Part shown: piece by piece, positions 2,265 to 45,279 of the stretch
Numbering within the stretch: position 1 is the stretch's first letter
Layout of the letters: each line of letters starts with the position of its first letter
Origin: Sphingosinicella sp. YJ22
Lineage (GTDB): Bacteria; Pseudomonadota; Alphaproteobacteria; Sphingomonadales; Sphingomonadaceae
Direction of reading: 5' to 3'
Assembly: GCF_011320075.1 (NCBI RefSeq)
Contig: NZ_JAANPA010000026.1
Coordinates: 1-45,279, forward strand
Length of the DNA stretch: 45,279 nucleotides
Translations under genes and position numbers: made by a program
Notes under the pieces: model-generated
Told to the model about the DNA's origin: nothing
The model's input: only the letters and a program-made list of their open reading frames with translations
The model's database searches: none

Positions 2265-3701
2265 CTAGCCGGCGACGTAGACCGTCTTCATCTGGGTGTA
2301 GAATTCGACCGCGGCGAAGCCCTGCTCGCGCCCGCCATAGCTCGACTTGCGGGTGCCGCCGAACGGCACGTGATAGTCGACTCCGGCGGTCGGCAGGTTC
2401 ACCATCACCATGCCGGCGCGCACGTTGCGGCGGAAATGGCGGCTGTGCTTGAGCGAGTTGGTGACGATTCCCGCCGACAGGCCGAACTGGCCGCGATTGG
2501 CGATGGCGAGGGCCTCGTCATAGTCCTTGACGCGCACGGTGCTGACGACCGGTCCGAACACTTCCTCGCTGTTGATGCGCATGTCGGGCGCGGTGTCGGC
2601 GATGACCGCCGGCGACATGAAATAGCCGGGATTGGTCATCTCAAGGCGCTCGCCGCCGGCGGCGAGGCGGCCGCCTTCCTCGGTGGCGATGCGCACGTAG
2701 CGCATGTTCTGTTCGAGCTGGCTGTCGCTGACCACGGGGCCGATCTGGGTCGCGGGATCGAGTGCGTCGCCGACCCTCAATGCGCGGGCGCGCTCGACCA
2801 GCGCCTCGACGAAGCGGTCGTGAATGCCTTCGGTGACGATGACCCGCGACGAGGCGGTGCAGCGCTGGCCGGTGCCGTAGAAAGCCCCGTCGATCGCACA
2901 GGCGACGGCGCGATCGAGATCGGCATCGTCGAGCACGACGAGCGGGTTCTTGCCGCCCATCTCGAGCTGGACCCGCGCCTGGCGCTTGACCGCGCCCTCC
3001 GCGACGCGCGCGCCGATGCCCTGCGAGCCGGTGAAGGAGATGCCGTCGACCTCCTCATGGTCGACGATCGCCTGGCCAACCTTGCCGTCGCCGATCACTA
3101 GGTTGAACACGCCCGCCGGCGCGCCGCATTCGTGGATGATCGCGGCCAGCGCATGAGCCGTCGCCGGCGTCGGGCTCGCCGGCTTCAGCACCACGGTGTT
3201 GCCGAAGGCGAGCGCGGGCGCCGCCTTCCACGCCGGGATCGCGATGGGGAAGTTCCACGGCGTGACCAGGCCGAACACGCCGACCGCTTCGCGATAGGTC
3301 GCGGCGTCGATTCCGGGGCGGGTGGAGTCGAGCGTCCGGCCATGGCGGCGAAGCGCCTCGCCGGCGAAATATTTGAAGATGCGCGCGGCGCGCATGACCT
3401 CGCCGGTGCCCTCGGCGATGGTCTTGCCTTCCTCGCGCGACAGCAGCTGCCCCAGCTCCTTGGCGCGCGCCATGATCGTCGATCCGACTTTGTCGAGCAG
3501 GTCGGAGCGCACTTCCGGCGAGGCGTCCGCCCAGGCCGGGAAAGCGGCGCGCGCTGCCGCCACGGCGGCGTCGACCTCGGCCTTGCCGCCGGCCGGGTAG
3601 CGCGCCACCACGTCGTTAGTGTTGGACGGGTTGAGGCTCTCGCCCGCGGCGGCGCCGGCAACCGCTTCGCCGGCGATGAAATGGGTGAGAGTGTCGGTCA
3701 T
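2265..3701 (-). CDS. NAD(P)-dependent aldehyde dehydrogenase
   Basis: A 478-residue ALDH-superfamily enzyme of normal length. Visible hallmarks: TPWNFP (N150) in the oxyanion region, LEMGGKNP with the general base E247, and GTGQRC with the catalytic Cys281. The C-terminal VPFGGTRKSSYGGREQG and EFYTQMKTVY resemble alpha-ketoglutaric-semialdehyde/2,5-dioxovalerate-type dehydrogenases used in sugar-acid catabolism. That substrate is an inference from overall look, since no pathway genes adjoin it. The start at 3701 (MTDTL) is chosen because GAGGAGG lies immediately upstream, though the spacing to ATG is short; the frame stays open to 3758. It is transcribed towards the PilZ gene. Confidence 0.85.
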   Translation of the reverse strand: MTDTLTHFIAGEAVAGAAAGESLNPSNTNDVVARYPAGGKAEVDAAVAAARAAFPAWADASPEVRSDLLDKVGSTIMARAKELGQLLSREEGKTIAEGTGEVMRAARIFKYFAGEALRRHGRTLDSTRPGIDAATYREAVGVFGLVTPWNFPIAIPAWKAAPALAFGNTVVLKPASPTPATAHALAAIIHECGAPAGVFNLVIGDGKVGQAIVDHEEVDGISFTGSQGIGARVAEGAVKRQARVQLEMGGKNPLVVLDDADLDRAVACAIDGAFYGTGQRCTASSRVIVTEGIHDRFVEALVERARALRVGDALDPATQIGPVVSDSQLEQNMRYVRIATEEGGRLAAGGERLEMTNPGYFMSPAVIADTAPDMRINSEEVFGPVVSTVRVKDYDEALAIANRGQFGLSAGIVTNSLKHSRHFRRNVRAGMVMVNLPTAGVDYHVPFGGTRKSSYGGREQGFAAVEFYTQMKTVYVAG

Positions 3702-14256: not shown

Positions 14257-15486
14257 GTCGCGGGTCAGCAGCCGCCAGCCGTCGGGCAGCAAGTCGGTCG
14301 ACATGAAATAATAGAAGTTGCAGCTGCCCGAGCGGGTCCAGTTGCCGCCCTTGTTGAGGCCGAGCGCGGTGGTGCCGACGAAGATCGGGCCGCCGCTGTC
14401 GCCGGCCGCGCAGGTCGGTCCCCTGACGGTGATCCAGGTCGGCTCGCACGGGCCGCCGCACAGCGTGCCGGGCGGGGCATAATCGGTGAGCTCGATCGCG
14501 GCGCAGCCATAGCCGCTGGTCTCGCCGCGGTGGCAGGCGATGTCGCCGGCGCGAAGCGACTCGCCCGGGCGGGCGCCGGTGAGCGGGCGCGCCACCTGCT
14601 TGTCGGCGTCGGCGTAGAAGAGCGGGCTCATCGGCGCGTCGCCGACATGGACCTGGACGTCCCGGCTGCCCGCTCCCCAGCCAGCGACGAAGGTGAGCCT
14701 CTGGCTGCGTCCGTCGGGCTGGAGAAGGGTGAGGTCGTCGGCGCAGTGGGCGGCGGTGGTAAGGCCGGTGCGGCGCCCGTCGGTGACGGTGAAGCCGGTC
14801 GTGCACCAGGTGCGCCGCCCGCTCGCCGGGTTGACGCCCTCGACCCTCGCGCCGCCTGCGGCGTCAAAATTCAAGCTCGCGCCGCCCGAGGCGTCGGAAT
14901 TGCGACTCTCGCCGACGGCGAGGCCGAGGCGGACGGGGACTCCGGTCAGCGCCTCGAGGCGCGCATCGGTCTCGGCGACGCGCTCGGGCGGGAAGCGGGT
15001 AGGGTTGCCGAGCACGACCAGCTCGCCGGTGCGCGGGTCGAAGCCCATGCCTTCGTTGCCGGGCGTGGCGGCGACGATGGCGTCGCGGTGGCGGCGCATC
15101 GCGGCGACGACCTGTGCGCGGGTCGCGGTCGCGCCGGTGACGAAGTGGACGGGGACCTCGATGCCTCCGACGCGGAGGGCGGTGTCGCGCGCTGGCCGGT
15201 TGCCGGTCAGTCGCACGACGATGCGGTAATCGGGGACATGCTCGACCGCGATCCCGGCGATGCGGCCGCGATGCCGGCGGAGGAGACGGTCGAGCGGGGC
15301 GACGCTGAGCTCCTGCGCGCGCAGGCGGCGCAGCGCCTCGTCCGGCGGGACATCGAACAGGTCGGCATAAGCGGCGGCGTCCTGGGCGAGCGCCTCGGCC
15401 GGCGTTTGCACGCGCGGAGCGAGCCCGTCCTGCGCGGCGGCGGGCGCGGCGATGAAGGCGGCAAGGACGAGGATGAGTTTACGCAA
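14167..15486 (-). CDS. Secreted streptogrisin-like (S1-type) serine protease with pro-region
   Basis: A 439-residue preproprotein. The signal peptide is MRKLILVLAAFIAAPAAAQ, residues 20 to about 190 form a helical pro-region, and the rest is a chymotrypsin-like domain. Catalytic residues visible are His247 in TTAAHCADD, probably Asp276 in RDVQVH, and Ser364 in CAAGDSGGPIF. Several cysteine pairs suggest disulfides, as in alpha-lytic/streptogrisin proteases. The start is uncertain: TTG 15486 begins exactly at the signal peptide, while GTG 15550 overlaps the methyltransferase stop (GTGA) and would give a 21-residue longer n-region. The 3' end overlaps the convergent membrane-protein gene by 90 bases. 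Confidence 0.78.
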   Translation of the reverse strand: MRKLILVLAAFIAAPAAAQDGLAPRVQTPAEALAQDAAAYADLFDVPPDEALRRLRAQELSVAPLDRLLRRHRGRIAGIAVEHVPDYRIVVRLTGNRPARDTALRVGGIEVPVHFVTGATATRAQVVAAMRRHRDAIVAATPGNEGMGFDPRTGELVVLGNPTRFPPERVAETDARLEALTGVPVRLGLAVGESRNSDASGGASLNFDAAGGARVEGVNPASGRRTWCTTGFTVTDGRRTGLTTAAHCADDLTLLQPDGRSQRLTFVAGWGAGSRDVQVHVGDAPMSPLFYADADKQVARPLTGARPGESLRAGDIACHRGETSGYGCAAIELTDYAPPGTLCGGPCEPTWITVRGPTCAAGDSGGPIFVGTTALGLNKGGNWTRSGSCNFYYFMSTDLLPDGWRLLTRDLAERLGVDPGLPRPLANHGPESEAADQAG

Positions 15487-37921: not shown

Positions 37922-38584
37922 ATGATCGTCTACGGCGCGTCGATGTCGCCTTATGTGCGCAAGGTGCTGGCCTTCGGCGTCGAAAAGGGCCTCGAGCTCG
38001 AGAACAAGCCGGTCGGGCTGGGCGACCAGGATCCGGAATTCCGCGCGGCGAGTCCGTTCGGAAAAATCCCAGGCTTTCGCGACGGCGACTTCGCCATTTC
38101 GGATTCGACCGCGATCATCATGTATCTCGACGCGGTCGCGCCGGAGCCGAACCTGATCCCGACCGAGCCCAAGGCGCGGGCGCGGACCTTCTGGTGGGAC
38201 GAGTTTGCCGACACGATCCTGATGGATTGCGGGCGCAAGATGTTCTTCAATCGCGTCGTGTCGCCTCTCTTCATGGGCAAGCCGGGCGACGAAGCCACCG
38301 CGATGAAGGCCGAGTGCGAGGAGCTGCCGCGGCTGGTCGATTATCTCGAGCCGAACATCCCGGCTTCCGGCTTCCTGGTCGAGGACCGGATCACACTCGC
38401 CGACCTGGCCGTGGCGAGCCCGTTCGCGAACATCACGCGCCACCTCAACGTCGCGATCGACGCGGGCCGATATCCGCGGGTGACGGGTTACATCCAGGGG
38501 ATTCTCGATCGGCCGAGCTTCAAGCCGATGATCGAGAAGGAGACGCGTTTCCTCGAAAAGGTGCGGGCACAAATACCGGCCTGA
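37922..38584 (+). CDS. Glutathione S-transferase family protein
   Basis: 220 residues with an N-terminal thioredoxin-like domain (IVYGASMSPYVRKVLAFGVEKGL; the SPYVRK segment stands at the usual glutathione-site position; SPFGKIPGF; SDSTAIIMYLD) and a helical C-terminal domain containing VEDRITLADLAVASPFAN. The substrate is unknown. ATG 37922 has GGGGAG about 10 bases upstream; the open frame extends 15 bases further without a better start. Confidence 0.85.
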   Translation: MIVYGASMSPYVRKVLAFGVEKGLELENKPVGLGDQDPEFRAASPFGKIPGFRDGDFAISDSTAIIMYLDAVAPEPNLIPTEPKARARTFWWDEFADTILMDCGRKMFFNRVVSPLFMGKPGDEATAMKAECEELPRLVDYLEPNIPASGFLVEDRITLADLAVASPFANITRHLNVAIDAGRYPRVTGYIQGILDRPSFKPMIEKETRFLEKVRAQIPA

Positions 38585-38652
38585 GCGTCCCCGTTCGCGA
38601 CAGGGCCGCTCTTCCTCTGGCGGGAGTCGGTGAGATCGCTTAAGCGCCCCGA

Positions 38653-39231
38653 ATGTTTCGGGGATTGTACGATTGGACGCTGAGGCTTGCCCACCACCGC
38701 CATGCGGTGCGCTCGATGGCGGCCGTGTCGTTCGCGGAATCGAGCTTCTTTCCGATCCCACCCGACGTGGTGCTGGTGCCCGTCGTGCTCGCCAACCGCG
38801 ACCGCGCCTATACGATTGCCGCCATCTGTACGATCGCCTCGGTGCTGGGCGGCGTGCTCGGCTATTTCATCGGCTATGCGCTGCTCGAGACGGTCGGGCA
38901 GTGGCTGATCCGGCTCTACGGCATGGGCGACGGCATCGCCCAGTTCCAGGAGACGTTCGAAACCTATGGCGCATGGATCATCCTCGCCAAGGGCCTGACC
39001 CCGATCCCGTTCAAGCTGATCACCATCGCCAGCGGAATCGCCCAGTTCAGCTTCGGGATATTCATCGTCACGGCGGTGATCACCCGAGCGTTCCGCTTCT
39101 TCCTCATCGCCTTCCTGCTCAAGCGCTTCGGCGAGCCGGTGCAGGCCTTCATCGAGCGCCGGCTGACCCTGGTCGGCTGGGCCGTGCTGATCGCTCTGAT
39201 CGGGGGCTTTGCCGCCGTAGCCCTGATCTAG
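38653..39231 (+). CDS. VTT/DedA-like inner-membrane protein (YqaA family)
   Basis: 192 residues with four to five hydrophobic segments. Landmarks include FAESSFFPIPPDVVLVPVVLAN (the E..FFPIPPD motif common to the SNARE-associated/VTT group), GGVLGYFIGYALLETVG, KGLTPIPFKLITIASGIAQ and ITRAFRFFLIAFLL. Members of this fold are proposed to move or scramble lipids such as undecaprenyl phosphate or phospholipids; the role here is inferred only. It lies 68 bases downstream of the GST gene and may be co-transcribed. Confidence 0.85.
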   Translation: MFRGLYDWTLRLAHHRHAVRSMAAVSFAESSFFPIPPDVVLVPVVLANRDRAYTIAAICTIASVLGGVLGYFIGYALLETVGQWLIRLYGMGDGIAQFQETFETYGAWIILAKGLTPIPFKLITIASGIAQFSFGIFIVTAVITRAFRFFLIAFLLKRFGEPVQAFIERRLTLVGWAVLIALIGGFAAVALI

Positions 39232-39255
39232 GGCAAGTCGGCCGGTAGGGCGGCC

Positions 39256-39444
39256 TCAATGGGCCCTGGTCGTAGGATGGGGTCGGAAGGACGCAAGCCG
39301 GTGGCCTTCGCGCCAGAGCTCGACCCGGTCGTCGCTCGGACGTTGCGCAGCCTGTTGCACCGCCTCGACATAGTCGGGCGCGTCGATCTCTTCCCAGCGC
39401 TCAAGCAGGTTGGCGCGAAAGAATAGCAGGCGGTAGGTCGGCAT
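39256..39444 (-). CDS. Small soluble protein of unknown function
   Basis: 62 residues, MPTYRLLFFRANLLERWEEI..., with a strand-helix-strand layout (YRLLFFRA, YVEAVQQAA, VELWREGHRLASF) reminiscent of small sphingomonad proteins in which a strand carries ELWREGxRLA. ATG 39444 is preferred because GGACG precedes it and the fold begins there; the frame is open to 39465. Function unknown. Confidence 0.55.
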   Translation of the reverse strand: MPTYRLLFFRANLLERWEEIDAPDYVEAVQQAAQRPSDDRVELWREGHRLASFRPHPTTRAH

Positions 39445-39550
39445 CGTCCTCGTCCATGCGAACACAAGCGAACAAGCCGCCCGTCGGTTTCATGGCGAGA
39501 GAGGAAGGGCCCGCCCCCACTGCCCAGGTTTCGGAAAGCCGGGGTGCGGC

Positions 39551-39820
39551 CTACTGACTGTTGCCGGCAATATTGGTCGTGGCGCCGCTGTCGGTCGCGC
39601 CGGTGTTGGCCGAGACGTTGGCGCCGACCTCCAGCGAGGTGTTGCCGGCAGTGTTGCGATCCGGACCGGCGCCGGTGCCGAGATCGGCATTGTCGTCGAT
39701 CGGCGGCAGGGTCTCCGTGCCGAGCGTGTTGGCGCTGGTGTTGTCGGCCTCGGTCCCACCGCCGCAAGCGGTGAGGGCGAGCAGGCTGGCCGGGACCAGC
39801 GCAAGAGGGAGAGTGCGCAT
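39551..39820 (-). CDS. Asn/Thr/Gly-rich lipoprotein
   Basis: 89 residues. The signal peptide MRTLPLALVPASLLALTACGGG ends in a lipobox (LTAC, Cys19). The mature protein is low-complexity, with frequent Asn, Thr, Gly and Ala (TEADNTSANTLGTE, NTSLEVGANVSANTG), so probably disordered at the membrane surface. No family recognised. Confidence 0.6.
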   Translation of the reverse strand: MRTLPLALVPASLLALTACGGGTEADNTSANTLGTETLPPIDDNADLGTGAGPDRNTAGNTSLEVGANVSANTGATDSGATTNIAGNSQ

Positions 39821-39988
39821 CGGCTGATGTCCCCGTCCGTGAATGACAGCGGCTTGAATGGCAGAGGGGGTACATGCGGTTCAAGACGTGTCGAATTCCG
39901 AGAAGCCGCAATGTGTTAACCCTCTTCCTGGGGAACCCGAGCGCGGTCAGGGTCATTCCGGTCACGGTCTTATTCAGAGGAGGGACCC

Positions 39989-40345
39989 TTGGGCAGCAGC
40001 CGCGTGGCGGGGCTGATCCGCGACGGGGAGAGTGGAGCGACGCGGGCGCGCGGCCTGACGGCGCAGCTGAGAACGGCGCCGGCGAGCTACGCCGTGCGGA
40101 TCCGCGACTTGTCCGCGCTTGGCGCGCGGATCGAAGCCGAAAGGCTGCCCAGCCCGGGAATGATCGTGTGCCTTCAGCGCGGCGGAGCGGCGGTGTTCGG
40201 GGTCATGGCATGGGTCGAAGACGGCCAAGGCGGCATCCTCTTCGACGAGGAGCTCGACACGCAGATATTTGGCGCGGAGCCACAGGGAGCGGAGCGCCTT
40301 GCCCGCGCCGCTTCGGCTGGCGAAATATGGGCTCGGCTGAGATAG
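39989..40345 (+). CDS. PilZ-like domain protein
   Basis: 118 residues. The central part (YAVRIRDLSALGARIEAE ... GMIVCLQRGGAAVFGVMAWVEDGQGGILFDEEL) follows the PilZ strand order with the DLSxxGxxIE motif. The N-terminus contains RARG before it, where the RxxxR c-di-GMP motif would be, but the match is poor. The start is a TTG at 39989 with GGAGGGA 4 bases upstream. A TTAACC lies about 75 bases upstream. It is the second PilZ-like gene of the window. Confidence 0.62.
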   Translation: MGSSRVAGLIRDGESGATRARGLTAQLRTAPASYAVRIRDLSALGARIEAERLPSPGMIVCLQRGGAAVFGVMAWVEDGQGGILFDEELDTQIFGAEPQGAERLARAASAGEIWARLR

Positions 40346-40382
40346 TCGTGAAATGCCAGCGAACCTATATGGCACTTTATCC

Positions 40383-40412
40383 TTGACAGCGTCACGCTAA
40401 TGTGGCACTAAT
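40383..40412 (+). promoter_or_regulatory. Possible promoter reading towards the GTA-like cluster
   Basis: A perfect TTGACA (40383-40388) followed after 18 bases by ACTAAT (40407-40412). The -10 is poor. If active it would transcribe about 410 bases before the portal gene, antisense to the small membrane-protein frame. Confidence 0.25.
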
Positions 40413-40694
40413 TGCACAAGCTGAGGAATTGTAGCTGATTCGCGGGGCCGGCCGATGGACGGGAGCTCTCGCCGGCTCGACCCCGCGTAGCGAGGCCAGG
40501 ACCGGCGCGGAAATCTCGCTAGCAGCCCCGCGCGGCACCGGCGGCGTCCACGTGAACAGCCGATAGAGCAGGGTGAAGGCCAGGATCAGGGCCAAGGCGG
40601 CCAGCATCAGGACCGCGACGAGCACGCGGCCCCGGCAGCCGACAATCCGGTTGTCGCTGGTTATGACTTCTTCGTTTCTGTCGCTTGGCTCCAT
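40392..40694 (-). CDS. Putative single-pass membrane protein
   Basis: 100 residues from ATG 40694: a charged start (MEPSDRNEEVITSDNRIVG), one strong transmembrane helix (VLVAVLMLAALALILAFTLLY, about 28-48) and a Pro/Arg-rich tail. The frame stays open upstream to 40823. No family recognised. If it is not a gene, 40346-40821 is an unexplained 476-base stretch before the portal gene. Confidence 0.45.
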   Translation of the reverse strand: MEPSDRNEEVITSDNRIVGCRGRVLVAVLMLAALALILAFTLLYRLFTWTPPVPRGAASEISAPVLASLRGVEPARAPVHRPAPRISYNSSACAISATLA

Positions 40695-40821
40695 CGGAAC
40701 ACCATTTCCGCTGCGTGCAGCGAACGCGTAGGAGCCTCCAGCCGTTTCCGGATGGGCGCCGCGGGGTTTGCGGCCCGAATTTGACCAACGCAGCCAGGAT
40801 TCCCGGCTTACGAGGTGACAC

Positions 40822-41955
40822 ATGAAATGGTTCGGCCGAAAGGGCGCGCGGGAAGCCGCGCGGCCTTTTTTGTTGCGGGGACTGTGGGGACAGGCGGGCG
40901 AGCCCTTGCCGCGATCCTACGAAGCCCAGGTGCGCGCAGCCTATCTCGGCAACGCCGTGGCGCAGCGCGCGGTGCGCCTGGTGGCGGAAGCGCTGGCGTC
41001 GATCACCATCGACGCGTCCGGGAGAGCGGACGGCAGCACTCCGATGGGCTTTGGACAGGCGGTGTCGCTGATCGACCCGGCTCTTCTCGAGAGCATCGGC
41101 ACCCAGTTGCTGCTTCATGGCAACGCCTTCGTTCACGTCGCGCAGGACGGGGAAGGGCAGCCGGCGCGGCTGTTCCCGCTCCGGCCAGAGCGGGTGAAGG
41201 TCGAGCCCGACGGCACGGGCTGGCCCACGTCCTACCTGTACCGCATCGGTGAAACAAAGCGGCGTTTCCAGATTCGGGATGGGCTGGGTCGGCCGGAGGT
41301 TATGCATATCCGCTCGGTCCACCCGCTCGACGACCATTATGGGCTCGGGTGCCTGGGGGCGGCCGCGGCGGCGGTAGCGGTGCACAATGCGGCAGGGCGA
41401 TGGAACAAGGCGCTGCTGGACAATGCGGCGCGTCCGTCCGGAGCCTTGGTCTATCAACCCGACGATGGCGCGGCGCTGTCGCCGGCGCAGTTCGAGCGGC
41501 TGCGCGAGGAAATGGAGGCGCAGTTCGCCGGCGCCGGCAATGCCGGGCGGCCGCTGCTGCTCGACGGCGGATTGAAATGGCAGGCGATGAGCCTGTCTCC
41601 GGCCGACATGGATTTCGTGGCGTTGAAGGCCGGCGCGGCGCGGGAAATCGCCCTGGTCTTCGGCGTGCCGCCGATGCTGCTCGGACTGCCGGGGGACAAT
41701 ACCTACGCCAATTATCGCGAAGCGGTTCGGTCATTGTGGCGCCTGACCGTGCTGCCGATGGCCGACAGGGTGCTCGGCGCGCTGAGCGAGGGCCTTGGCG
41801 CATGGTGGCCGGGGCTGAGGCTCGCGGTCGACATCGACCAGGTGAGCGCCCTGCACGGCGATCGAGCCGAGCTGTGGGCAGCGGTCAGCGCGGCGGATTT
41901 CCTGACGCGCGATGAAAAAAGGGAGATGCTGGGCTTCTCCCGGGAGCAGGCGTGA
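40822..41955 (+). CDS. HK97-family phage portal protein (GTA-like)
   Basis: 377 residues. Portal signatures are readable: an N-terminal block with AYLGNAVAQRAVRLVAEALA, LLLHGNAFVHV, PLRPERVKVEPDG, HPLDDHYGLGCLGAA, and FGVPPMLLGLPGDNTYANYREA, a standard portal segment. It corresponds in position to g3 of the Rhodobacter GTA. GAGGTGAC lies just upstream of the ATG. No terminase-like gene precedes it. Its stop overlaps the next start (TGATG). Confidence 0.9.
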   Translation: MKWFGRKGAREAARPFLLRGLWGQAGEPLPRSYEAQVRAAYLGNAVAQRAVRLVAEALASITIDASGRADGSTPMGFGQAVSLIDPALLESIGTQLLLHGNAFVHVAQDGEGQPARLFPLRPERVKVEPDGTGWPTSYLYRIGETKRRFQIRDGLGRPEVMHIRSVHPLDDHYGLGCLGAAAAAVAVHNAAGRWNKALLDNAARPSGALVYQPDDGAALSPAQFERLREEMEAQFAGAGNAGRPLLLDGGLKWQAMSLSPADMDFVALKAGAAREIALVFGVPPMLLGLPGDNTYANYREAVRSLWRLTVLPMADRVLGALSEGLGAWWPGLRLAVDIDQVSALHGDRAELWAAVSAADFLTRDEKREMLGFSREQA

Positions 41956-42269
41956 TGAGCGACAACGCGGCGATGCTCGCGCAGCTGATGCGGCAGGCGG
42001 AGCAGGAGGGCGCAGCGTTGGTGACGCTGCGCGCGCTCGCCGAGGAGGCGAGCGAGGTCGGGGCGGAGCGGGCGCTGTCGCTGCTCGGGCTGACCGGAAC
42101 GGCGGCGCGACGCGACATGGACGAACTGCGCGAGCTGCTCCAGGCGTGGCGCGACGCCAAGAAATCGGCGTGGCAGGCGGTGGTGACCTGGTTCGTGCGG
42201 ATCGGCCTGGCGGCGCTGGTCGCCGGCATGGCGGTGAAGCTGGGACTGCTGGAACGGCTGGCAGGATGA
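41955..42269 (+). CDS. Small DUF6127-like protein of the GTA cluster
   Basis: 104 residues: helical, Ala/Glu/Leu-rich first part (MSDNAAMLAQLMRQAEQEGAALVTLRALAEEASEVGAERA), then a conserved-looking LGLTGTAARRDMDELRELLQAWRDAKKSAWQ segment and a terminal membrane helix (WFVRIGLAALVAGMAVKLG). I associate it with DUF6127, found beside portal and protease genes in alphaproteobacterial GTA clusters; this name is from memory. It overlaps both neighbours (TGATG before, ATGA after), so it is translated in a coupled series. Confidence 0.65.
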   Translation: MSDNAAMLAQLMRQAEQEGAALVTLRALAEEASEVGAERALSLLGLTGTAARRDMDELRELLQAWRDAKKSAWQAVVTWFVRIGLAALVAGMAVKLGLLERLAG

Positions 42270-42643
42270 GGTTCGCCGGCTATGCGGCGGTGTTCGACCG
42301 ACCGGACCGAGGCGGCGACGTGGTGCGGCGTGGGGCGTTTGTAAGGGCGCCCGCCGCTCATGCGGTGCCGTTCCTGTGGCAGCATGACCGGACGCGGCCG
42401 ATCGGCCGGATCGACTACCTGCGCGAAGACGCACGGGGACTGCGAGTGATCGGCCGGGTCGTCGACGCGCAGGCTGTCGCCCTGCTCAAGGCGCGGGCGG
42501 TGAGCGGTTTGAGCTTCGGTTACCGCGTGCGCGAGGCGAAGGGCACGGAGCCGCGCGAACTCACCGCCTTGGAGCTGATCGAAGTGAGCCTGGTGACCTT
42601 TCCGATGCAGCCGCTGGCGCGGGTGCATGCCATCGAAAATTGA
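42266..42643 (+). CDS. HK97-family prohead protease (GTA-like)
   Basis: 125 residues, short but with the family landmarks: FAGYAAVFDRPDRGGDVVRRGAF, PFLWQHDRTRPIG (active-site His region), ARAVSGLSFGYRV (active-site Ser region) and ELIEVSLVTFPMQPLARV. It cleaves the scaffold part of the major capsid protein during head maturation. ATG 42266 overlaps the previous stop. It corresponds to g4 of the Rhodobacter GTA. Confidence 0.88.
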   Translation: MRFAGYAAVFDRPDRGGDVVRRGAFVRAPAAHAVPFLWQHDRTRPIGRIDYLREDARGLRVIGRVVDAQAVALLKARAVSGLSFGYRVREAKGTEPRELTALELIEVSLVTFPMQPLARVHAIEN

Positions 42644-42725
42644 ATCGTGGCCGTCGCGGGGATGAGACGGGGTCTGTGAGGGGCGCTTCGGCGCCTCTCT
42701 TCATTTTTGAGCGGGAGAGAGGGTG

Positions 42726-43841
42726 ATGGTGGACGTGGTTGCGGATGATGCGCTGGAGGCTTCGTTCGAGGCGCTCGAGCAGGAGCATGTCGAGGTGGAG
42801 GGGCTGCGGGCCGAGGTTGCGCAGCTGAGGGCGCGGCTGGCGGCCAGCGAGCGGCCGCCCCTGTCGGGCGCCAAGAGCGAAAGCTCGCCCTTCGTCGAGC
42901 GCTACCTGAGAAAAGGCCTCGAGCAGGGCGTCGAGCTGAAGGCGATGTCGGGCGTTTCCGACGCCGCCGGCGGCTATGCGGTGCCCGAGGAGATCGACGC
43001 TCAGATCGAGCGGGCGCTGACCGCGATCTCGCCGCTCCGGGCGATCGCGTCGGTCGTGAAGGTCGGAACGGCCGGCTATCGCAAGCTGGTGACGACGGGC
43101 GGAACGCCGGCCGGCTGGGTGGCGGAGACGGCAGGGCGGCCGGAGACGGACACGCCGGTGTTCAACGAGATCGCGCCGCCGTTCGGCGAGCTCTACGCCA
43201 ATCCGGCGGCGAGCCAAGCGATGCTCGACGACGCCGCGTTTGATGTCGAGGCGTGGCTGGCGAGCGAGATCGCGACCGAGTTCGCGCGGGCCGAGGGCGC
43301 CGCTTTCGTGTCGGGATCGGGCGTCAATCGGCCGAAGGGGTTTCTCGCCGCGGACACCGCCGAGACGGCAGACGGGGTGCGGCCGTTCGGCACGCTGCAG
43401 GTCCTCAAGACCGGCGTCGCCGGCGGCTTCCCGGCGAGCAGCCCGCAGGACAAGCTGATCGATCTGGTCCAGAGCCTGCGCTCGCCGTATCGGCAGGGTG
43501 CGGTGTTCGTGATGAACTCGGCGACCGCGGCACGGATCCGCAAGTTCAAGACCAGCGACGGCGCGTTCCTGTGGCAGCCGGGGCTGGTGGCCGGGCAGCC
43601 GGACACGTTGCTCGGCTATCCGGTGGTGGAGGCCGAGGACATGCCGGACGTCGCGGCGGACTCGCTGTCGATGGCATTCGGCAACTTCAAGGCGGGCTAT
43701 CTGATCGCCGAGCGCGCGGAGACCCAGATCCTTCGCGACCCGTTCACCAACAAGCCGTTCGTTCACTTCTACGCCACGCGCCGCGTCGGCGGGCAGGTGA
43801 TGAACAGCGAGGCGATCAAGCTGCTGAAGTTCGCGGCCTAA
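42726..43841 (+). CDS. HK97-fold major capsid protein (GTA-like)
   Basis: 371 residues from ATG 42726 (GTG 42723 is an alternative; GGGAGAGAGG precedes). The N-terminal 50-70 residues are coiled-coil scaffold-like (EALEQEHVEVEGLRAEVAQLRARLA). The HK97 core then starts at AAGGYAVPEEIDAQIERALTAISPLRAIASVV and includes GGTPAGWVAETAGRPETDTP, FVSGSGVNRPKGFL, FVMNSATAARIRKFK and FGNFKAGYLIAER. It corresponds to g5 of the Rhodobacter GTA. It ends KLLKFAA at 43841, after which the GTA order breaks. Confidence 0.93.
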   Translation: MVDVVADDALEASFEALEQEHVEVEGLRAEVAQLRARLAASERPPLSGAKSESSPFVERYLRKGLEQGVELKAMSGVSDAAGGYAVPEEIDAQIERALTAISPLRAIASVVKVGTAGYRKLVTTGGTPAGWVAETAGRPETDTPVFNEIAPPFGELYANPAASQAMLDDAAFDVEAWLASEIATEFARAEGAAFVSGSGVNRPKGFLAADTAETADGVRPFGTLQVLKTGVAGGFPASSPQDKLIDLVQSLRSPYRQGAVFVMNSATAARIRKFKTSDGAFLWQPGLVAGQPDTLLGYPVVEAEDMPDVAADSLSMAFGNFKAGYLIAERAETQILRDPFTNKPFVHFYATRRVGGQVMNSEAIKLLKFAA

Positions 43842-43843
43842 GC

Positions 43844-43953
43844 TTCGCGCGGAGGCGCCGAGGCGGGCAACGTCGGCGTCCTTTCCTGGCTGATAGGAGG
43901 TGCGGCGTGAAGCGAGGCCGCAAGGCCTCGTCGACTTTGCGCCTCCGCGCGAA
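43844..43953. repeat. 15-bp perfect inverted repeat enclosing a GCAA-loop hairpin
   Basis: TTCGCGCGGAGGCGC (43844-43858) and its exact reverse complement at 43939-43953 enclose 80 bases. Within them CGAGGCC-GCAA-GGCCTCG (43913-43930) forms a perfect 7-bp hairpin with a GNRA tetraloop. The element lies between the capsid stop and the tail-fibre-like start. It could be a terminator, an RNA structure or the edge of an inserted segment. Confidence 0.6.
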
Positions 43954-43974: not shown

Positions 43975-45279
43975 ATGTCCTTGTTCTTTGCGGACCTGGT
44001 CCGGGAGTTTTCGCACTCCACCGGCGCGGGCGACCTCGCGCTCGAAGGCGCGTTGCCGGGGCATCGGCGGTTCGGGGACCTCGTGCCGGCTGGGGCGCGG
44101 TTTCACTATGCGCTTGCCGGGCTCACCAACCCCAGCGAGTGGGAAACGGGCGAGGGCGAGCTGGGCAGCGGTGCAACGCTGGTGCGCTCCCCGCTCGCGT
44201 CCTCGGCCGGTGGGGCGCTGGTCGACTTCTCGCCGGGACTGAAGACGGTGGCGCTGACCGTCGCCGCGGCCTGGTTCGCGGACCAAGACGCGGCGGTCAA
44301 TGCCGAGCTACCGGCGCTGCAGGCGGCAATCGACGGCAAGGCGCCGCTGGAGCACGATCACGACTCGTCTTACGCGGCGGCCGGGCATGAGCACAGCTTC
44401 GCCGCGCTGACCGACAAGCCGACGACCCGCGCGGGCTACGGCATCATCGATGCGCAGCCGCTCGACGCCGAGCTATCCGCGATTTCCAGCCTCGTCTCGG
44501 CGGCGGATCGGCTGCCCTATTTCACCGGTGCGGGCACCGCGACGCTGGCGACGTTCACGGCTGCCGGGCGTGCCCTGGTCGATGACGCGGACGCGGCGGC
44601 GCAGCGCTCGACGCTTGGTCTTGCTTCGGCGGCGCTGAAGAACACTGGCACCTCGGGCGACGCAGTGCCGCTGCTCAATGGGGCAGCGGATTTCGGTTCC
44701 CGCCTGACCGCGGCCGGCGGCGGCATGTTCACGGGCTTCGTGGCGGCGCGCCCGTTCGACGGCATCGAGCTTCGATATGTGGCGGGGATCGGCACGATCC
44801 AGGCCGTCACCGCCGCCGGTGCTGCAATGCCCGTGCGCGTGAGCGGCTCCGATGTCCGCATTCACATCAGCGGCGGCGACCGCCTGACCATCGACAATGT
44901 CGCCGCCAATTTCACGGTGCCGATCCAGCGCAACGGGACGCAGGTGCTCAATACCCGCATCACCGGGTGGGGCACGATGACCGGCACCGCGACGCGCAGC
45001 GCGTGCGACACGGCGACGGTGACAGCGGCGCAGCTGGCCGAGCGGGCCGCGCGCGCGTTCGCTACACGGCCGGCCTGGCGGTGGACTGGAATGGCCTTCC
45101 GGAGCCCTTGCGGCAGGGGATCGTGCGGCTCGCCGCGCATCTCTATGCTGCCCGCGGCGAGGCGGACGCGCCGCCCCCTGCCTGCGTCGCCGCGTTGTGG
45201 CGGCCGTGGCGGCGGCTGCGGCTCGGCTGATGTTCGGCCGGCTGACGGCGCGCGCGGCGCAGCTGGCCGCGCGGAGCGC
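43975..45279 (+). CDS. Phage tail-fibre-like protein, reading frame runs into a foreign 3' end
   Basis: The frame opens at ATG 43975 (GGAG 7 bases upstream) and has no stop before the window edge. Residues 1-105 (MSLFFADLVREFSHSTGAGD ... ALTVAAAWFADQD) form an N-terminal domain; then HDHDSSYAAAGHEHSFAALTDKPTTRAGYGI is the His-rich, GYGI-type repeat of tail fibres. A beta-rich part ends with TGWGTMTGTATRSACDT, VTAAQLAERAARA, the usual last segment of such proteins. After about position 45057 the frame becomes Arg/Pro/Gly-rich nonsense, while the connector remnant is encoded in another frame. The true C-terminus (about 10-15 residues and a stop) is therefore missing. Confidence 0.6.
   Translation, partial: MSLFFADLVREFSHSTGAGDLALEGALPGHRRFGDLVPAGARFHYALAGLTNPSEWETGEGELGSGATLVRSPLASSAGGALVDFSPGLKTVALTVAAAWFADQDAAVNAELPALQAAIDGKAPLEHDHDSSYAAAGHEHSFAALTDKPTTRAGYGIIDAQPLDAELSAISSLVSAADRLPYFTGAGTATLATFTAAGRALVDDADAAAQRSTLGLASAALKNTGTSGDAVPLLNGAADFGSRLTAAGGGMFTGFVAARPFDGIELRYVAGIGTIQAVTAAGAAMPVRVSGSDVRIHISGGDRLTIDNVAANFTVPIQRNGTQVLNTRITGWGTMTGTATRSACDTATVTAAQLAERAARAFATRPAWRWTGMAFRSPCGRGSCGSPRISMLPAARRTRRPLPASPRCGGRGGGCGSADVRPADGARGAAGRAER
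45054..45230 (+). pseudogene. C-terminal remnant of a GTA-like head-tail connector (g6-like) gene
   Basis: In the frame ending at TGA 45228-45230 the last 58 codons read RVRYTAGLAVDWNGLPEPLR and continue with QGIVRLAAHLYAAR and a CVAALWRPWRRLRLG end, the C-terminal part of gp6-type head-tail connector proteins (usually about 200 residues). The N-terminal 140 or so residues are absent. Upstream of 45054 this frame is only a shadow of the tail-fibre-like gene. No start codon or ribosome binding site of its own is convincing. It overlaps the next start (TGATG), as g6 and its neighbour normally would. Confidence 0.6.
45230..45279 (+). CDS. Start of the next GTA-like cluster gene, cut by the window edge
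   Basis: ATG 45230 overlaps the connector stop. The first 16 codons read MFGRLTARAAQLAARS. That is too short to assign; a head-closure or tail-terminator gene would be expected at this position. Confidence 0.45.
   Translation, partial: MFGRLTARAAQLAARS

Follow-up and report, generated by a model that had tools for sequence, protein, structure and literature searches.

In the gene transfer agent (GTA) of R. capsulatus, RcGTA, a dodecamer of Rcc01688 sits on the portal and the capsid and binds the tail stopper, as summarized in PMC7296036, which also gives the numbering of g6 and g7. The head fibre gene of R. capsulatus is described as lying outside the head-tail cluster, and capsid fibre genes are reported within the structural region of GTA-related phages, e.g., Rhizobium phage 16-3 (PMC11409702). 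In podophage GP4, Gp77 is named as the fibre-tail adaptor (PF23148; PDB accession no. 8jou). Finally, pseudogenised and lost GTAs are reported in alphaproteobacteria, in the general terms set out in PMC10883770.

The window analysed here, a stretch of 45,279 nucleotides from Sphingosinicella sp. YJ22, is the entire contig C19 of a genome (G000) that comprises 82 contigs and 2.97 Mb and is 99.99% complete. Its final 50 bases (45230-45279) are also the final 50 bases of contig C33 on the opposite strand, forming a dovetail of exactly 50 bp through which the GTA cluster runs on in the expected gene order; because the window ends where the contig ends, the connector gene is not truncated by the limit of the window. 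After the overlap, C33 carries genes for head closure, tail completion (PF11367), tail tube (PF06199), and GTA-gp10 (PF11836), followed by the tape measure (PF09718, a match that, like that of NlpC/P60, falls just below the Pfam cut-off), a gene with a tail-sheath TIM barrel and DUF2460, the baseplate hub (TIGR02218, “phage/gene transfer agent baseplate hub protein”), NlpC/P60, and g15 (Phage-tail_3, Rcc01698_C). Together with the portal, DUF6127, protease, and capsid genes of the window (Table 1), these downstream genes identify the window and C33, by homology, as an RcGTA-like head-tail cluster, with syntenic homologues of most head-tail genes (those from portal to capsid lie on C19 and those from closure to g15 on C33). 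Reading portal, DUF6127, protease, capsid, connector end, closure, tail completion, tail tube, GTA-gp10, tape measure, DUF2460, hub, NlpC/P60, and g15, the order is that of RcGTA; the connector of G016, a genome of the same genus, is homologous to Rcc01688 and the end of g15 to Rcc01698. The differences from RcGTA are a fibre/adaptor slot between capsid and connector, the fusion of DUF2460 to a tail-sheath TIM barrel (as in G016), and the lesions in the window. Gene numbers other than g6 and g7 are those we take to apply, with the DUF6127 gene presumably in the g3.5 position.

Table 1. Coordinates of cluster features in the window and of capsid-connector modules in relatives
Feature	Coordinates	Strand	Evidence or comment
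Missing large terminase site	40443..40826		~4.7 kb including terminase in G016 between the same flanks
Portal (g3)	40822..41955	+	PF04860, E 1.1e-75
DUF6127 gene	41952..42269	+	PF19622, E 2.9e-27
Prohead protease (g4)	42266..42643	+	PF04586, E 6.4e-26
Major capsid protein (g5), open frame	42723..43841	+	PF05065, E 9.8e-89
Fibre-like gene, without last ~20 codons and stop	43975..45045	+	61% identity to G016 over residues 1-358
Junction tract, G/C only, 16 bp	45042..45057		Alignment with G016
g6-type head-tail connector, last 58 codons and stop	45054..45230	+	82% identity, G016 residues 118-174 of 174
Head-closure gene start	45230..45279	+	Same 50 bp end contig C33
Slot modules in relatives	L077:7006-7802, L080 ~2270-3060, L075:2609-5115		Capsid-connector interval
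Slot modules in relatives	L083:2708-5936, L084:2343-3889, L086:4543-7341		Capsid-connector interval

The fibre-like frame that the original prediction placed from 43975 onward proved homologous to phage fibres, matching PHROG tail-fibre families (best E of 2.6e-11 for the query 43975-45276), and its likeness to G016 extends through the residues AER (45037-45045). As had been claimed, the fibre's own stop is missing, and compared with G016 its last ~20 codons are gone too. The codons at 45054-45227 match PHROG 442 (head-tail adaptor; E of 4.3e-7) in a frame other than that of the fibre, which agrees with the proposal that the last 58 codons of a connector gene follow here; with 58 of ~175 codons remaining, the g6 connector is not intact. 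Coding sense had been said to be lost at about 45045-45060, and alignment indeed places the crossover within or beside a 16-bp run of G and C only, 45042-45057. The likeness to the connector starts at 45033, ~45045, or 45057, depending on the alignment, and since these starts reach from 45033 to 45057, the precise point is not fixable. The estimate of ~140 missing connector codons holds relative to the 197-aa RcGTA protein (~139), but only ~115 are missing relative to G016 (175 aa including the start).

A 16-base direct repeat that had been proposed as microhomology for the join (45025-45040 and 45254-45269) is real and occurs at those two places only, even with one mismatch allowed (shuffles expect 0.02), and a 16-bp repeat was present in just 13 of 2,000 Markov simulations of the 1,305-bp region. 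Both copies encode AAQLA in frame, one in the fibre and the other in the head-closure gene, whereas the G016 stretch L037 does not contain the 16-mer. In the window as a whole, 29 16-mers (~12 pairs) recur, so that repeats this long are not rare there. We rejected this repeat as the joining homology because its second copy lies past the connector stop, inside the next gene.

In G016, the corresponding order is capsid, a 395-aa fibre, a spacer, a 93-aa Gp77-type adaptor (PF23148; E of 3.3e-29), a 175-aa connector, and head closure, and the full connector matches TIGR02215 and the RcGTA adaptor Rcc01688. The window is shorter than G016 by 919 bp, comprising the fibre end, the adaptor, and ~115 connector codons. 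The suggestion that a fibre stands here instead of the g6 connector was therefore dropped, since G016 carries both, whole and in the region order capsid-fibre-adaptor-connector; so was the idea that a GTA head module had been converted into a fibre-bearing one, since in G016 the fibre already lies between the capsid and an intact connector. A relative in which an intact fibre is followed by a full connector had been named as evidence against the prediction; G016 is such a relative, and it rules out replacement, not loss. The discontinuity is real and was rightly placed, and it most likely reflects loss rather than replacement.

Searches with the adaptor and with residues 1-109 of the G016 connector gave no other match in the window assembly at an E of ≤0.001 (small contigs may be absent from it), and relocation of the missing pieces elsewhere in the genome was rejected because the adaptor and the connector start are not found on its contigs; the search covers these two pieces, the lost fibre end being too short to search for. 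Across 60 genomes, the Gp77-type adaptor is present in 17, the window genome not among them, the connector remnant was found in 28, and the full G016 connector was found in 33, with the window genome matching residues 110-174 of 174 only. The fibre was matched in four of the 60 (the window's own genome included), of which G016 gave the only full-length match (61%), while G039 and G051 match at about residues 3-78 only; a GTDB scan returned, among the matches listed, G016's own record and at least 13 partial matches. As G016 was the only close relative found with this fibre, the deletion was sized by comparison with that genome alone. The N-terminal domain of the fibre is common to 43 of the 80 viral loci kept from 341 found, and a 17-sequence HMM detected no Gp77-type gene near phage fibres with this domain in the 80 kept loci, many of which are short. 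The predicted model of the fibre has a mean pLDDT of 49 and is good only at residues ~10-100, i.e., the N-terminal domain; confident over this part only, it gave no PDB match at an E of ≤0.001.

We put at roughly 75% the probability that this is a decaying RcGTA-like cluster that lost ~0.9 kb between the fibre end and about codon 115 of the connector. Its ancestor would have carried capsid, fibre, Gp77-type fibre adaptor, g6 connector, and head closure, as G016 still does, and ~0.9 kb would have been lost at the G/C-only tract, from the last 20-odd codons of the fibre to about codon 115 of the connector. The tract may have served as microhomology, as judged from the surviving sequence. The cluster would thus be left with a fibre that lacks its native end and with neither a fibre adaptor nor a usable connector ring; given the place of g6 in RcGTA, the head could not join the tail, and the cluster should make no working particles. 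Of the three options originally offered (an insertion or deletion creating a fibre-bearing module, a decayed GTA, or an assembly chimera), the decayed GTA fits best with the other lesions in the cluster, the mostly clean non-cluster neighbourhood, and the similar lesions in relatives.

The same nonfunctional state is suggested by three further lesions, namely the lack of a terminase, a nonsense codon, and a shift of frame. The tail-sheath/DUF2460 protein of G016 (759 aa) aligns to C33 over its full length with 77% identity, interrupted by one in-frame TAG at the position of G016's TGG, with homology on either side. The g15 homologue is split between two frames (residues 30-402 and 404-746), a change that could be a sequencing error. 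Upstream of the portal, a blastn comparison with the G016 stretch L256 found a VTT-domain gene and the portal collinear in the window, with a 62-bp patch as the only other homology between these flanks; no terminase lies beside the portal. The G016 terminase matched 38501-41000 at chance level only, and the upstream ORFs of eight relatives, including the terminases of G034, G008, G007, and G019 (family checked on the G034 protein: PF17289 and PF03237), revealed none in the window. A terminase adjoins the portal or lies slightly upstream of it in 10 of 15 genomes; there is none at this place in G000, G005, G020, and G011, and the cluster of G006 is cut by a contig end. Terminase matches elsewhere in G000, on C6 and C8, are 47 to 60% identical, in pieces, and away from the GTA cluster. 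As genes that remain whole in close relatives carry disabling lesions here, the locus has the makeup of a GTA pseudogene cluster, each single lesion of which may be a sequencing or assembly error. Judged from the genes, the lesions argue against particles that move random host DNA.

Two side observations concern these genes. The fusion of DUF2460 to a noncontractile tail-sheath TIM barrel (L003:14893-17178 and L037:4373-6649, both on the minus strand) can be aligned over most of its length in each of the 14 relatives besides G016, and the G016 g15 protein has no TIM-barrel match. The further terminase-like genes of G000 (C6, 5310-6587; C8, 49395-50684) indicate that other prophage-like regions probably exist in this genome.

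Could the join at 45042-45057 instead be an artefact of assembly or of a chimeric read, the genome having fibre, adaptor, and connector intact in a cluster perhaps broken elsewhere? The join lies ~230 bp from a contig end, where assemblies go wrong, in a G/C-only tract with 72% GC around it, and contig ends overlap by assorted lengths, which marks them as awkward in this assembly: six exact dovetails (113, 72, 63, 50, 29, and 17 bp) exist among 62 of the 164 ends, and six more pairs of ends share 30-mers without a dovetail. A single fixed overlap length was rejected, as the lengths vary, and the other end of the window has no exact match to any contig end. However, G/C-only runs of 17 to 22 bp occur at least 15 times elsewhere in the window, and the adaptor and the connector start are on no contig of the 99.99% complete assembly. 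Overlaps of 50 to 113 bp were left unmerged elsewhere, so that a join on ~16 bp would be out of character, and the remaining cluster lesions (the stop and the missing terminase) are of another kind than a misjoin. We regard an artefact as unlikely. The neighbourhood served as a control, in which G016 ORFs of at least 100 aa from a 23.5-kb homologous neighbourhood were compared with the first 40 kb of the window, keeping matches of at least 55% identity and removing overlapping ones (16 non-cluster ORFs, 13.5 kb aligned). Fifteen of the 16 align in one piece without stops, some of them only partly, so that breakage is concentrated in the GTA cluster; the sixteenth, which matches in part and contains two stops, is an ORF overlapped by others on the opposite strand and is probably no gene.

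It is far less probable still that the fused frame is a working gene, i.e., a fibre with a new 130-residue end in a fibre-bearing device without a g6 connector. The frame does stay open across the connector remnant to the contig end and for another 54 codons in C33 (489 aa in total), but its tail is connector and head-closure sequence read out of frame. Moreover, neither the native end of the fibre nor the adaptor remains, and the terminase, tail-sheath/DUF2460, and g15 genes are lost or broken too.

If the cluster is decaying, its lesions look recent relative to the split from G016. Between the window genome and G016, dN and dS are 0.12 and 0.75 for the connector remnant, 0.18 and 0.67 before and 0.14 and 0.63 after the stop in the tail-sheath gene, and 0.33 and 1.07 and 0.38 and 1.14 for the two parts of g15; the pattern is purifying in the connector remnant and beyond the tail-sheath stop. 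Compared with five relatives taken as intact, the window proteins have changed about like those of G016 or less in most genes, showing little sign of long relaxation; DUF3168 (16.2 versus 7.6 unique changes), NlpC (13.4 versus 9.8), and the tail tube (7.6 versus 4.4) are faster in the window. It is on the low dN/dS of the broken genes, together with changes no greater than those of G016 in most genes, that we base a recent decay; the rate pattern also fits a cluster less broken than it appears. The junction is most likely a case of a known phenomenon, GTA pseudogenisation. As outlined in PMC10883770, the GTA cluster in “cheater” lineages of alphaproteobacteria likewise contains broken genes, the breakage being recent as judged by dN/dS; compared with that outline, the lesions of the window are placed in single genes, and a same-genus counterpart is intact. 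GTA decay alongside such a counterpart bears on the question of whether GTAs are lost by way of nonproducing lineages of this type.

To place these lesions among relatives, we compared the cluster in 14 genomes besides G016. Within the genus, the connector was matched in 12 of 25 other genomes, ten of which were examined, omitting G009 (divergent) and G011 (cut by a contig end). Clear lesions are found in three of the ten: in G025, portal homology stops at residue 51 and protease homology at residue 28, the capsid is gone, and g15 has a stop; in G005, the capsid lacks its first 228 residues, and closure has no match; and in G020, the tail-sheath gene has a 97-residue gap and a frame change, and g15 has a stop and a frame change. 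The same test found no lesion in G016, G018, G008, G007, G010, and G019 (the small closure gene being undetected in G007 and G010), and the cluster of G006 is cut by a contig end. Among five genomes outside the genus, in all of which closure and DUF3168 were undetected, G030 and G034 are without stop or frame change, G031 has one stop in g10, in G041 the tape measure is partial and g15 contains a stop, and G032 (86% complete, 7% contaminated) has several frame changes. In G005, protease homology gives way to capsid residue 229 within ~20 bp (L182, ~15117-15139, minus strand), apparently by a deletion of the same kind in another species.

The interval between capsid and connector was compared in 19 of 20 loci (G009 was omitted for want of a capsid match), listing ORFs of at least 60 aa. 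Eight of the 19 have no gene-like ORF there (G018, G020, G005, G007, G034, G019, G031, and G011), G018 having only a 61-aa ORF that runs into the connector. The adaptor stands by itself in G008, and G025 retains it though its capsid is gone. Fibre-like genes or genes of unknown type accompany the adaptor in seven loci (G016, G030, G032, G037, G041, G050, and G038); the slot gene of G030 bears an esterase domain (PF03629), in G037 and G032 the slot genes belong by match to a PHROG tail family, and several other slot proteins have no Pfam family match. In G010 and G006, the slot holds an 88-aa gene of a single PHROG family, which in G010 is homologous to Rcc01079, the head spike base of RcGTA (6tb9; E of 8.8e-10), whereas the window has a fibre instead. 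The 93-aa gene of G016 resembles Gp77 of podophage GP4 also at the level of the structure entry (8jou_D; E of 5.9e-4), but it sits in a GTA-type head cluster, and the window has lost it. A fibre gene likewise lies among the head-tail genes of Rhizobium phage 16-3 and others, but these are phages or prophages, likened here by placement only (PMC11409702).

The gene order fibre, adaptor, connector suggests that in intact relatives the fibre/adaptor pair probably surrounds the g6 connector ring as a collar and attaches to cell surfaces. It is tempting to speculate, with the chances about evenly balanced, that the g5-g6 gap of sphingomonad GTA clusters is a swap slot for receptor-binding modules and that the cassette of the window was caught in the middle of its loss, together with its docking ring. 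If this was the case, GTA particles would switch the cells they bind through cassette exchange at one fixed place, and the fibres would dock on the capsid or on the connector ring, making the slot a candidate site for the determinants of the cell range of a sphingomonad GTA. Titles and abstract openings on Sphingomonadales GTA fibres or pseudogenised GTAs contained no mention of such a slot, which may still be published. Within the same interval of the window, the spacer between the capsid stop and the fibre start contains an inverted repeat (43844-43865 and 43932-43953; 22 nt, 86% complementary) that could be a terminator or an attenuator.
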